Below are positions 51,464 through 58,805 of a DNA stretch of 64,000 nt, piece by piece. Every line of letters starts with the position of its first letter. Within the stretch, counting starts at the first letter, position 1. The DNA comes from Cytophagales bacterium (lineage in GTDB: Bacteria; Bacteroidota; Bacteroidia; Cytophagales; Spirosomataceae). Both the position numbers and the translations under genes were made by a program. The notes under the pieces are model-generated. The model had not been told where the DNA came from, ran no database searches, and saw only the letters and a program-made list of their open reading frames with translations. The stretch spans positions 1 to 64,000 of the forward strand of contig JAAFJE010000022.1 in NCBI GenBank assembly GCA_013298025.1, in the 5' to 3' direction.

Positions 51464-52423
51464 TTAACGCCCAATGGCCACTCGTCGCAGAATGGTATCA
51501 ATCACCTGCATGGTTGTGATGCCGTCGGCTTCGGCTTCATAATTGAGCATGATACGGTGGTTGAGTACGTCGGGGGCAATTTCTTTGATGTCTTCGGGCA
51601 ACACATAATCTCGCTCGTCTAGGTAAGCCAATACTTTGGCCGCCAAATTGAGGTTGATGGTAGCTCTTGGCGATGCCCCAAATTGGATATACCGAGCCTC
51701 ATCACGCAGGCCGTAATCGGCTGGCTTACGGGTAGCAAAAATCAACTCAATAATGTATCGTTCGAGGGTTTCAGAAATGGTTATTTTGTTGATTTCTTGT
51801 CGAATAGCGGCAATGTCTTCTTTTGTCAAAATTACTTTTGGCGTATAATTGAAGTCCATATTCGACATCTTTTGCATGACCTCCAACTCTTGCTCTTTGT
51901 TGAGATAACCCATAAAAACTTTGAGCATAAAGCGGTCTACTTGGGCTTCGGGCAAGGGAAACGTTCCTTCTTGCTCTACAGGGTTTTGGGTGGCAAGTAC
52001 CAAAAAAGGCTTGTCGAGCAGGTAGCTTTCGTCGCCAATGGTTACTTGTTTTTCTTGCATGGCTTCGAGCAAGGCCGATTGCACTTTGGCTGGAGCTCGG
52101 TTGATTTCGTCGGCAAGAATGATGTTGGCAAAAATGGGCCCTTTGCGTACTTCAAAGTCGTCGAGCTTGCGGTTGTAAATCATGGTACCGATGAGGTCGG
52201 CAGGGAGCAAGTCGGGCGTAAATTGTATGCGATGGAAATTTAAGTCTAATATTTTGGCTAAAGTATTGACCGACAAAGTTTTGGCAAGTCCGGGTACGCC
52301 TTCTAGCAACACGTGTCCCCCTGTGAAAAGACCGATGAGCAGGCGGTTGGTGAGGCGTTCGTGTCCGACCACGATTTTGCCCATTTCGTCAAATACTTGC
52401 TTTATTTTTGAGCGTAAATTCAT
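51464..52423 (-). CDS. MoxR family AAA+ ATPase
   Basis: A 319-residue ATPase. Walker A is EGVPGLAKT (about 40-48), Walker B ILADEINRAP (about 105), and sensor LATQNPVEQEGTFPLPEAQVDRFM. MoxR proteins act as chaperones that load metal or assemble complexes, usually encoded with a DUF58 protein and von Willebrand factor A proteins. In this window the DUF58 gene is on the opposite strand 470 bases away with a small membrane-protein gene between them. Confidence 0.94.
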   Translation of the reverse strand: MNLRSKIKQVFDEMGKIVVGHERLTNRLLIGLFTGGHVLLEGVPGLAKTLSVNTLAKILDLNFHRIQFTPDLLPADLIGTMIYNRKLDDFEVRKGPIFANIILADEINRAPAKVQSALLEAMQEKQVTIGDESYLLDKPFLVLATQNPVEQEGTFPLPEAQVDRFMLKVFMGYLNKEQELEVMQKMSNMDFNYTPKVILTKEDIAAIRQEINKITISETLERYIIELIFATRKPADYGLRDEARYIQFGASPRATINLNLAAKVLAYLDERDYVLPEDIKEIAPDVLNHRIMLNYEAEADGITTMQVIDTILRRVAIGR

Positions 52424-52890: not shown

Positions 52891-54270
52891 ATGCACAAAT
52901 TTGGCAGAAAGTATTTAGTTTGCATAAAAAACCTGTCGCAAGTGAAAGCCCTAACATCTATTTTTCTCTCAACTATCTTTTACTACACTACCGCCTTGCT
53001 GGTACTGTTGTTTGTGTTGGCGTTTTTTATGCCCATTTTATACCACTATGCCCTGCTGGCTACGTGTCTTGCAGGGGTATTGTTGCTCCTCGATGCCCTG
53101 ATGCTCTATACTTTGCAGGGTATTTTTGCCAGACGAAGCGTACCCGAAAGGCTGTCTAATGGCGACGAAAATCCGCTTTCGATTTATGTAGAAAACCATT
53201 ATACTTTTGAAGTAAAGCTCGAAATTATCGACGAAATACCTTTTCAGTTTCAGAAACGGGATGTATTATTTTTGTTACAATTACAACCGAAAGAAAGTAA
53301 AATTATCCGCTATCAACTCCGCCCCACCGAAAGAGGGGTATATCATTTTGGGGTGGTGAATATCTATGCGAGTTCGCCTTTGCGTTTATTGCAACGCCGT
53401 TTTCAGTTTGAGCAAGCCAAAGAAGTGGCGGTATATCCTTCCTTTTTGCAACTAAAAATGTATGACCTCAAGGCGATTTCGCATAAATTAACCGAGTTTG
53501 GCTTGAAAAAAATACGTAGAATAGGACAAAGCCAAGAGTTTGAACAAATTCGGCAATATGTACAAGGCGACGACATCCGTACCATCAATTGGCACGCTAC
53601 AGCTAGGCGTAATGAGTTGATGGTAAATGCTTTCCAAGAAGAAAAAGCCCAATGTGTGTATAATATTATTGATAAAGGAAGAGTGATGCAAAGCCCTTTC
53701 GATGGGCTTACTTTGCTCGATTATGCCATCAATGCTAGTTTGATTGTGAGCAATGTAGCTTTACAAAAACAAGATAAAGCTGGGCTGATGACTTTTGCCG
53801 ATACCGTACACGACCGTCTGCCAGCCGAAAGAAAGGCTACGCAAATGAACAAAATTTTGGAGGTGCTTTACCAACAAACGACTGATTTTAAAGAAAGTAG
53901 CTACGAGGCATTGTATATACAGGTAAAGAAACATATTACCCAAAGGAGCTTATTGGTGATTTATACCAATTTTGAAACAGTCACTTCTATGCGGCGACAG
54001 TTGCCTTATTTCCAGCAATTGGCCAAATCGCATTTGGTGTTGGTGGTGTTTTTTGAAAACACGGCTATTCGGGCATTATTGGAGGGCGAATCTCGTACCA
54101 CAGAAGATATTTACCAGAAAACAATTGCCGAAAAGTTTTATTATGAAAAAGAGCAAATTGTAAAAGAATTAGAAAAATATGGCATCAAAGCCTTGCTTAC
54201 AAGTCCAGCCAATTTGACCATCAATACGCTCAATCGGTATTTGTCTTACAAATCGAGAGGATTGATATAA
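52891..54270 (+). CDS. DUF58 domain-containing protein
   Basis: A 459-residue protein with two hydrophobic segments near residues 21-70 and the DUF58 domain signature GQSQEFEQIRQYVQGDDIRTINWHATARRNELMVNAFQEEK at about 210-255. A von Willebrand A-like fold follows (NIIDKGRVMQ). DUF58 proteins work with MoxR ATPases; the exact client is generally unknown. Normally they sit in one operon; here they are divergent. Confidence 0.9.
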   Translation: MHKFGRKYLVCIKNLSQVKALTSIFLSTIFYYTTALLVLLFVLAFFMPILYHYALLATCLAGVLLLLDALMLYTLQGIFARRSVPERLSNGDENPLSIYVENHYTFEVKLEIIDEIPFQFQKRDVLFLLQLQPKESKIIRYQLRPTERGVYHFGVVNIYASSPLRLLQRRFQFEQAKEVAVYPSFLQLKMYDLKAISHKLTEFGLKKIRRIGQSQEFEQIRQYVQGDDIRTINWHATARRNELMVNAFQEEKAQCVYNIIDKGRVMQSPFDGLTLLDYAINASLIVSNVALQKQDKAGLMTFADTVHDRLPAERKATQMNKILEVLYQQTTDFKESSYEALYIQVKKHITQRSLLVIYTNFETVTSMRRQLPYFQQLAKSHLVLVVFFENTAIRALLEGESRTTEDIYQKTIAEKFYYEKEQIVKELEKYGIKALLTSPANLTINTLNRYLSYKSRGLI

Positions 54271-56418: not shown

Positions 56419-56431
56419 GGAAGTTAGTTGG

Positions 56432-56460
56432 CATCACGGGCTAGGCGAAAGCCCGTGATG
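56432..56460. terminator. terminator between the quinone oxidoreductase and SUMF1-type genes
   Basis: CATCACGGGCT (56432-56442) and AGCCCGTGATG (56450-56460) are perfect complements with a 7-base loop, between convergent genes. Confidence 0.8.
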
Positions 56461-56477
56461 TGGGCTTTTATCATCCT

Positions 56478-57602
56478 TTAATTCCTAGCCAACCGAAACC
56501 CAACGCCTTTTTTAGCTGTACCATCCCACCCACCACTATCAAAAACAGTATAATAATTATAGATTATTTTCTTTAAAACTCCTTCGTTCCAATTACTGAT
56601 GTAAGGGTAATAAAAAGGTCCAATAGGGTTATTCTTATCAAAATTATCCTCATAACTTCCTCCTCTCGTGACCTTATTATTCAGCAAATAAGTGTAGTAG
56701 CCTATTGCATCGGCGATACATACTTCGCTCACATTGCCTGATAAGTCATGAATACCCAAATCGTTGGCACGTTTCTGTCCAACAGGATGAATTTGTCCTC
56801 CACTATTGCCACCATACCACCCAACGATAGATATTTCACTACTTCCCGCATAATTAAAATTATTTGTTCCTTCACTTGTGGCGGCACATTCCCATTCCGA
56901 TTCTGTGGGTAAGCGGTAGTGGTATTTGTTCTTTGTTAGGTCATTGAGTCTAATTAAAAAAGTATCTATTTCGGCTTGTGATATATTATCTTTCGGACAA
57001 GTAGGGCAGAAAGAAGGAGTTACAGGTTCGTTCATAACATAGTTCCACAAATCTTGAGTTACTTCATATTTATTAAGCCAAAAAAGTGGTATGTCTTTAG
57101 GATAGAACTTAGAAAATCTAGCAATATTAGGACTATCAAGGGTACTAGAACTAGAAACACCATCCTGTCCTAAATTATAAAAACCACCTGAAATTTTTAT
57201 GAAAGCAGCATTCTTATCAAAGTAGTTAGAAATCCTGTTATCTGGCGTGGAGGTAAACGTAACAGGATTAATAATAGGAACATGAACATCGTTGCAATTA
57301 TCATATATTGTAGCCTCTATTGATAACGTCATATTATTTTGCAAATATATCATACAATCTTTGTAGCCTACAGTGCTATCAGTTAAAGAGAAATTACTTC
57401 CTTTAATAACCCACTTAATGGCCTTTATCTTATCGGGTACATCAATTTTAGCCGTCAAAACGAATATTCCATCATCAATAGTTATTATTTTTCTCTGTAT
57501 GTCACAAGTATAAGCTGGAAATGACTCAGGGGGGTCCATCAAACAAGAACAGAGATTTAGGATAGAAAATAACAAAAAAGTTAAAATCTTAAATTTGCGC
57601 AT
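56478..57602 (-). CDS. SUMF1/FGE-type domain lipoprotein
   Basis: A 374-residue protein with a lipoprotein signal (MRKFKILTFLLFSILNLCSC; cysteine 20), a beta-rich N-terminal part (about 30-135, perhaps Ig-like) and a C-terminal formylglycine-generating-enzyme-like domain (GGFYNLGQDG, PLFWLNKYEVTQDLWNYV, YRLPTESEWECAA, GGNSGGQIHPVGQKRANDLGIHDLSGNVSEV, GVGFRLARN). Most bacterial proteins of this type are not sulfatase-activating enzymes but ligand-binding lectin-like modules. It lies 12 bases after the pseudo-caspase gene and should be in its operon. The region is more AT-rich than its neighbours. Role unknown. Confidence 0.85.
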   Translation of the reverse strand: MRKFKILTFLLFSILNLCSCLMDPPESFPAYTCDIQRKIITIDDGIFVLTAKIDVPDKIKAIKWVIKGSNFSLTDSTVGYKDCMIYLQNNMTLSIEATIYDNCNDVHVPIINPVTFTSTPDNRISNYFDKNAAFIKISGGFYNLGQDGVSSSSTLDSPNIARFSKFYPKDIPLFWLNKYEVTQDLWNYVMNEPVTPSFCPTCPKDNISQAEIDTFLIRLNDLTKNKYHYRLPTESEWECAATSEGTNNFNYAGSSEISIVGWYGGNSGGQIHPVGQKRANDLGIHDLSGNVSEVCIADAIGYYTYLLNNKVTRGGSYEDNFDKNNPIGPFYYPYISNWNEGVLKKIIYNYYTVFDSGGWDGTAKKGVGFRLARN

Positions 57603-57614
57603 GGGTTCTAAAAG

Positions 57615-58805
57615 CTAAAATGTATAACGTAGTGCTATGCCTAGCGAGCGTTGTGCAGGCGAAAACGACAAACCTTTATTTTGTAGTTTTTTATTAATTG
57701 CTTCGGGCGACCTAATAAATAGCAAGTATCCTTCATACAGCACAGATAACGCTGATGTTGCAATAAGTGTATTAACTAAGATTAATGTTGTCTTACGGGT
57801 TTGTATAGCATCATCGTAGGCTTTTTGCCAAGTGATATAATCATTGTACGTTTTAAAATACAGGGTTTTCTTATCATATGAAGTGGCAGCATAGTTATCT
57901 GCCAAGATTTTTTTATTTTGATAGTTGTTGTTCAAAACAAAAGCTACTAAGCCTGTAGCTATGGCGGTGCTTCCTACCAAAATTTTTAACCCTACACGTG
58001 CCGGCCGACTTGCATTAATCAATTGAATATCTCTTGATAATTCATCGTATTTGACGGGCGTTTGTAAGCCTGTTGTTTTTGATGAAACATCGTTGATGGT
58101 ACTGTCTAGTACCGTTCTGATGCCCGTATTTACTTTTCCTAGGTATCTAATCAAAGACGCAGAAAAGGTACTGTTTTGAAAGTCTTGTTGTTCGTTCGAT
58201 AAATTACCTTCCTTGGCTGCAAATACCGATAGTACATTGCCATTTTTACTTGTGCTGTCTTGCACAAAACCTGAATGTATGCCCAGTCGCTCTACGTCAA
58301 AAAGCTCACGGTTGGCATCTAGCACCATAAAGCAATATTTTACTTTTTTACTGCTAAGGTTATCTTTGACACCTTTGAGTGAAATAGTATTTTTCAAAGG
58401 ATTTAGCTGGGCATCAATGGGTAAAATATAATTTGTTTTATTTTTATTGATGCCATACCCTGAAAAGTAAAAAAATACCACATCGTTTTCCTGCAAGGTA
58501 TCTTGTATGCTTTTAAGGCTGAGACTTACATTACTAGAATCGGCATCGGCCAACATTTTTACGGCAAAACCTAGTTGTTGCAAACGAGCCTTGATGGCTT
58601 TGGCGTCGTTGATGGGCGTATGAAGCTCTGGAAGGTTCTGGTAAGTACTGTTACCGATAATAAAAGCAATGCGGCGTTCTTGCTTTTTCTTCGATAAAAA
58701 AGGAAATTGTTGGGCAGATGTAGCCAATGACAACAGGCATAGCCCAAGAGTAAACACAAGCCAATTGGGTCGTAATCGTGCAGTATGGTACAGCTTATCT
58801 ATCAT
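57615..58805 (-). CDS. caspase-family (C14) homologue without catalytic residues
   Basis: A 396-residue protein. Residues 15-33 are a signal/anchor. RIAFIIGNSTYQNLPELHTPINDAKAIKARLQQLGFAV (about 45-82) is the standard start of the caspase-like p20 domain. At the histidine site the text reads FFYFSGYGINKN, with tyrosine 117 in place of histidine, and at the nucleophile site MVLDANRELFD, with asparagine 165 in place of cysteine. Two further membrane-like segments lie at about 273-292 and 340-363, and the end GIALRYTF resembles a last outer-membrane strand. The fold is therefore present but proteolysis cannot occur by the normal mechanism. Co-transcribed with an FGE-type lipoprotein. Confidence 0.85.
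   Translation of the reverse strand: MIDKLYHTARLRPNWLVFTLGLCLLSLATSAQQFPFLSKKKQERRIAFIIGNSTYQNLPELHTPINDAKAIKARLQQLGFAVKMLADADSSNVSLSLKSIQDTLQENDVVFFYFSGYGINKNKTNYILPIDAQLNPLKNTISLKGVKDNLSSKKVKYCFMVLDANRELFDVERLGIHSGFVQDSTSKNGNVLSVFAAKEGNLSNEQQDFQNSTFSASLIRYLGKVNTGIRTVLDSTINDVSSKTTGLQTPVKYDELSRDIQLINASRPARVGLKILVGSTAIATGLVAFVLNNNYQNKKILADNYAATSYDKKTLYFKTYNDYITWQKAYDDAIQTRKTTLILVNTLIATSALSVLYEGYLLFIRSPEAINKKLQNKGLSFSPAQRSLGIALRYTF

Follow-up and report, generated by a model that had tools for sequence, protein, structure and literature searches.

Pseudo-orthocaspases, in which Tyr stands at the catalytic His and Asn (YN) or Ser (YS) at the nucleophilic Cys, have been published from cyanobacteria and alphaproteobacteria, and pseudo-variants accounted for 10 of the 1078 Bacteroidetes orthocaspases in the survey concerned (PMC6426788; this and the other papers cited were used in excerpt). 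Fusions of caspase domains with domains of the formylglycine-generating enzyme (FGE) type have also been published (PMC3501461). Inactive caspase effectors and kinase–PP2C neighbours are known from other systems, and the passages available from that source (PMC7159879) do not describe the system reported here. The locus studied here shares with the pseudo-orthocaspases a p20-like domain, Tyr at the His position, Asn or Ser at the Cys position and two pocket Asp residues; in contrast, its protein is predicted to be exported, ends in a two-helix module and is accompanied by a lipoprotein (compare PMC6426788). It has the same two domain types as the caspase–FGE fusions, but they are distributed over two proteins, the FGE part is a lipoprotein and the dyad is lost (compare PMC3501461). 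The YN pseudo-caspase and the caspase–FGE association are therefore already known, and neither is a new kind. What is new is a family-restricted C-terminal module, here called CTMOD, which is fused to a caspase only in the window, and its operon setting. Neither the module, nor the lipoprotein partnership, nor the kinase/phosphatase/caspase operon was named in the excerpts of the open-licence papers searched.

The window, a stretch of 64,000 nucleotides from a Cytophagales bacterium of the Spirosomataceae (contig JAAFJE010000022.1), contained two intact minus-strand ORFs separated by 12 nt. The upstream gene (57615–58805, −) encoded a fusion of a pseudo-caspase and a membrane module of 396 aa, and the downstream gene (56478–57602, −) a lipoprotein of 374 aa, which agreed with the intact frames and the two-gene unit proposed in the first-pass annotation. 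The GC content of the fusion gene was lower than that of the neighbouring genes listed. A terminator-like hairpin with a 12-bp stem was located between convergent genes (56431–56461, +) and was at most suggestive; five terminator-like sites were found in the region, and shuffled sequences averaged 1.9. Two genes that we take to encode a MoxR-like ATPase (51464–52423) and a DUF58-like protein (52891–54270) lay a few kb away on other transcription units, and no link to the pair was seen.

The fusion protein had a single Peptidase_C14 match (Pfam, E = 8.8e-29; residues 44–258; 58032–58676, −) with the module directly after it. The caspase fold was predicted with confidence, the block means of the AlphaFold2 model being at least 90 across residues 41–170. 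The best solved match, both by sequence profile (2.3e-24) and by fold (E = 7.6e-17, 22% identity), was the human MALT1 paracaspase. MALT1 has an intact His–Cys (HC) dyad and is cytosolic. In alignments with other caspases, Tyr117 (YFSGYG; 58455–58457, −) occupied the position of the catalytic His and Asn165 (LDANR; 58311–58313, −) that of the nucleophilic Cys, just as the first reading of the DNA had proposed. Asp67 (58605–58607, −) and Asp163 (58317–58319, −), which we matched to the specificity-pocket acids described in PMC6426788, were invariant in two caspase alignments. Judged by its sequence, the protein thus has the p20-like domain, the substituted His–Cys dyad and the kept acidic pocket of a pseudo-orthocaspase, and it has presumably lost proteolysis.

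The N-terminus of the fusion protein was hydrophobic (peak at residues 16–34) and was followed by SA/QQ, so that a signal peptide was predicted for residues 1–31 with cleavage before Gln32 (58713–58805, −). This site fits the Q-rule for signal-peptide cleavage in Bacteroidetes (PMC5837995), and the caspase domain is therefore probably periplasmic. Two more hydrophobic segments had their peaks at residues 273–291 and 339–357, and the second protein carried a lipobox. Hydropathy and motifs are thus consistent with the membrane attachment and the export of both proteins that had been claimed for the pair.

CTMOD comprised the C-terminal 127 aa (residues 270–396; 57618–57998, −), in which two hydrophobic helices precede a conserved end segment with LGIALRYTF. 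The model placed the helices at residues 278–309 and 320–365 with moderate confidence. LGIALRYTF resembles an outer-membrane beta-signal; no such claim is made, because residues 383–395 formed a low-confidence helix in the model. The module of the window matched two profiles, both of which included the window sequence, with E-values of 1.8e-36 and 1.1e-38, and the independent pairwise matches to other modules gave 1.3e-12 and 3.9e-12. With a 17-row profile, CTMOD was found at 48 places in 44 of the 222 family genomes. It was also found in 4 of 395 class genomes, including the own genome, and all four belonged to the same family. The own genome had two module genes. Among all 48 places examined, a caspase–module fusion occurred in the window only; the other module proteins began with TPR (most of those read), with short beta domains or with no recognised part, and the start positions of some module genes (L110, L242) were uncertain. 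Only TPR families exceeded the Pfam cut-offs in ten module proteins, and there was no family for the module itself. No module family exceeded the cut-offs in PADLOC (the window protein and one other) or NCBIfam (the window protein and two others). In the module tree, which carried long-branch warnings, the window module grouped with two modules of the same-genus genome G053 (support 96/84), and a wider group (98/89) joined it to four modules that lack TPR and are linked to caspases. Of the five caspases associated with the window module and these four, two had lost the nucleophile (those of the window and L046) and three were HC.

The partner protein possessed the lipobox LCSC with Cys20 and a CLMDPP motif, its gene starting 12 nt downstream of the fusion gene. 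Its FGE-sulfatase match (PF03781, E = 4.9e-14) covered residues 132–296 of 374, and the FGE-type (C-type-lectin-like) domain was assigned to residues 132–374 (56481–57209, −). The FGE-type lipoprotein of the earlier reading was thus recovered. In formylglycine-generating enzymes, two catalytic Cys residues follow the RGGS motif. The Cys residues of the partner protein were only at 18, 20, 33, 83, 103, 199, 202, 239 and 295, none of them after RGGS, so an active FGE enzyme was ruled out. GldK and GldJ of the T9SS and gliding machinery are likewise FGE-related Bacteroidota lipoproteins; however, membership was ruled out by the NCBIfam equivalog cut-offs (26.4 vs. 350 and 20.6 vs. 458.2 bits). 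Between the lipidated Cys and the FGE-type domain, a beta/PKD-like domain may be present (57285–57545, −, including that Cys). Cys20, Cys33 and Cys103 resembled the Cys pattern of module-partner lipoproteins, and the hhalign comparison with their N-terminal domains was weak (score 21.8, E = 0.0035, Prob 9.3; 20 shuffles up to 13.3). The structure prediction suggested for both proteins succeeded for the caspase; the lipoprotein model was poor (pLDDT 47.5) and was not used.

A lipoprotein with a C...P motif was found within 2 kb of the module gene at 42 of the 48 places and directly adjoined it at 37. The corresponding values for control genes were 204/668 and 32/668, these genes being neighbours in the same loci and therefore not independent. 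For the genes of the window the values were 4/49 within 2 kb and 1/49 adjoining, and the only lipoprotein there was the partner itself. The motif rule missed L039, L046, L048 and L057, for which the gene tables list a gene resembling that of a lipoprotein; these four are not counted in the 42. The contig of L141 ended 262 nt after the module gene, and no lipoprotein was seen beside the module gene of L123. Three tandem PKD–FGE lipoproteins were located at L039:15036–18876, and the mature N-termini of the first two were identical over the 125 residues compared.

The module loci had a characteristic neighborhood. Among the first 41 loci, a same-strand caspase was located within 6.5 kb or fused in 37, and kinase (33), PP2C (33), FHA (29), ECF-sigma (31) and anti-sigma-like (32) genes were also frequent. 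Over all 48 loci, such a caspase was found in 39; the nearest ones, including that of the window, were HC in 37 cases, HT in one and YN in one. Kinase and PP2C occurred together in 35/48 loci, with a caspase in 34/48 and with FHA too in 30/48. Nine loci had no caspase nearby, five of which were among the last seven fetched. The arrangement at L113:944–9532 was FHA–PP2C–caspase–Ser/Thr kinase with TPR–TPR-CTMOD–PKD/laminin-G lipoprotein; its caspase was HC and probably exported, and an opposite-strand ECF sigma/anti-sigma-like pair came after the operon. This operon is possibly a new envelope signalling system. The window pair resembled these Spirosoma-type operons in the module with its neighbouring lipoprotein, but it had a pseudo-caspase in place of TPR and FGE in place of LamG. 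No kinase or PP2C was found up to 6.5 kb from the fusion gene, and no FHA was found nearby. The own genome contained a single Pkinase match above the cut-off (E = 4.9e-16, residues 2–153 of 263), on another contig. At L138:11172–12365, close to where the stretch ends, an ORF matched both PP2C and caspase and may be a PP2C–caspase fusion.

Two further arrangements bear on the origin of the pair. A cluster of the own genome (G000:C6) comprised an HC caspase–FGE protein, a separate module protein and PKD–FGE lipoproteins in the same order. In Runella's genus group, a TPR-module protein and an FGE lipoprotein occurred with no caspase at L136, L240, L241 and L242, the last with its N-terminus cut by the contig end. 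This suggested that the window pair was rearranged, with the caspase domain standing at the N-terminus of the module protein.

Both domain types were common in the own genome. There were 14 FGE matches and 14 Peptidase_C14 matches; of the latter, 11 were HC, one was the YN of the window, one was TC and the last was broken up by the alignment. Six proteins among its fetched loci were caspase–FGE fusions. In a caspase–FGE gene at L043:5100–6588 (G000:C52), the FGE domain was split across two ORFs, probably by a frameshift. The first-pass annotation had asked for an active caspase with the same C-terminal part elsewhere in the genome: intact dyads were indeed present, but the module was fused to a caspase in the window only, so the HC caspase with this C-terminal region that would have argued for simple loss in this strain was not found at any of the 48 places. 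Among 175 distinct aligned caspase segments, most from loci fetched for their similarity to the window, 160 were HC, eight were gapped at one or both dyad positions and seven were substituted, one each being FC, TC, YN, YS, HT, LG and MC (LG and MC as read from the alignment only). The YN dyad was that of the window protein alone.

A second pseudo-caspase lineage was observed in the genus, with a TC domain at L042:564–1319 in the own genome and an FC domain as the second domain of L047:2674–4188. The two were 72% identical, and both kept Cys and had lost His alone. The FC domain was fused to an HC domain in one protein, and the TC caspase adjoined an HC caspase–FGE protein. The dN/dS of the TC/FC pair was 0.19, compared with 0.06–0.10 for three HC pairs, and this suggested that pseudo-caspases in the host genus can be under constraint, a conclusion drawn from this lineage and not from the window gene. 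By analogy, the cyanobacterial pseudo-orthocaspase SyOC, the deletion of which raised oxidative-stress tolerance (PMC7889975), may serve as a precedent for the function of a substituted caspase. At L046:1817–2908 (G053), an HT caspase was located beside a CTMOD gene and had the longest end branch in the caspase tree.

The two losses within an intact frame had been taken to indicate a retained role. This argument was not upheld. No orthologue of the fusion protein was found in four other genomes of the genus, nor outside the own genome at E ≤ 1e-30 in 390 order genomes (a maximum of four candidates scored per genome), so conservation of the Y/N substitutions could not be seen. The best foreign matches among 200 family genomes were 35–36% identical and covered the caspase domain only, and the closest HC paralogue was ~35% identical. 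A single-protein scan of the genome contigs returned no relative; an alignment scan returned at least 79 loci, and none among the matches listed had the module. Ten close HC homologues shared 53 invariant core columns, of which the window protein retained 35; each of those homologues had lost at most four columns invariant in the others. Eleven of the 18 changes were conservative by our reading (L/I/F, S/T/A, D/E). The end branch of the window caspase was 1.36, against a median of 0.25, in a tree that carried long-branch warnings, placed it among HC proteins and did not fix its exact position. The 18 changed columns also fit relaxed selection, and together with the absence of an orthologue they leave a retained role unproved. 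The first-pass annotation had not recognised the C-terminal part as a module accompanied by a lipoprotein of its own, which tells more about the protein.

Here, the explanation that we favour, and hold to be an evenly balanced proposition, is that the dead caspase stands where an interaction domain would usually form the N-terminus of the module protein in an envelope module–lipoprotein pair, and that it works by binding. The window pair would be one form of an envelope cassette specific to the family, whose module protein would consist of an N-terminal interaction domain and a two-helix membrane hairpin (CTMOD). It would work with the neighbouring lipoprotein, which would have a short PKD-like domain and a C-terminal recognition domain of, for instance, the laminin-G-like, beta-propeller or FGE/C-type lectin kind. 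Most relatives have TPR at the N-terminus, and their cassette shares an operon with genes for a Ser/Thr kinase, PP2C and an HC caspase, and usually also FHA. In the window, a caspase domain would have been fused at the N-terminal position and catalysis lost, presumably in that order; the domain would most likely be a periplasmic binding scaffold or adaptor whose retained acidic pocket might still hold basic peptides, and the FGE lipoprotein would sense or bind a ligand. The distribution of the module in the family, the frequency of caspases and motif lipoproteins beside it, the gene order of the C6 cluster and the four TPR-module loci of Runella's genus group all favour this explanation. The same is true of the grouping of the window module with caspase-linked modules, the nearest of which, in G053, also has a caspase without Cys (HT), as well as of the constraint on the TC/FC lineage and the invariant Asp67 and Asp163. 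However, no orthologue of the fusion was found and so there is no direct sign of selection on it, the own genome has only two module genes and lacks the kinase operon, the N-terminal link and the model of the lipoprotein are poor, and nine module loci have no caspase nearby.

The changed core columns, the long branches in both trees and the lower GC would also be expected of a decaying orphan, that is, a caspase–module fusion that lost catalysis and drifts without function. Its restriction to one genome agrees with this, but frames of 396 and 374 codons without a stop, the intact signal peptide, lipobox, helices and gene order, the conservative nature of most changes and the confidently predicted caspase fold led us to consider decay unlikely. 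The kept pocket acids could also serve a decoy or dominant-negative regulator, which would bind the substrates or partners of HC caspases and restrain or tune them. The host has 11 such caspases, HC domains are fused or adjacent to FC and TC domains in the genus, and inactive effector domains have been proposed as decoys (PMC7159879, in excerpt). On the other hand, the closest HC paralogue is distant, the window pair (C15) and the caspase cluster (C6) are on different contigs, and other conserved core residues have changed as well, so that a decoy seemed to us rather unlikely, though slightly more probable than decay. The same source describes FGE and inactive caspase domains as effectors of conflict systems, and the PADLOC 'caspase' model gave 31.2 bits. 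A defence-type effector with the FGE domain as its variable recognition part is nevertheless very improbable, since predicted export fits an extracytoplasmic role and neither associated system was recovered. The sole RVT_1 match in the genome, truncated where its contig ends, was judged by eye to be group II intron-like, and a diversity-generating retroelement was ruled out; an EACC1-associated caspase was ruled out at 34.5 bits against the NCBIfam cut-off of 140.

We propose more tentatively an undescribed envelope signalling system of this family, in which a lipoprotein receptor and the module protein would work with a periplasmic caspase and with Ser/Thr kinase, PP2C and FHA proteins. In this host the dead caspase would have been recruited into that system as its periplasmic adaptor domain, and would then be a bacterial parallel to the pseudo-proteases that act as scaffolds. 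Because gene fusion and neighborhood connect a pseudo-caspase with a membrane module and with a lipoprotein, the locus gives a non-proteolytic role a testable form. It also points to a common kinase/phosphatase/caspase operon in one family. Whether bacterial caspases act at the envelope, and why some of them lose catalysis, can thereby be tested.
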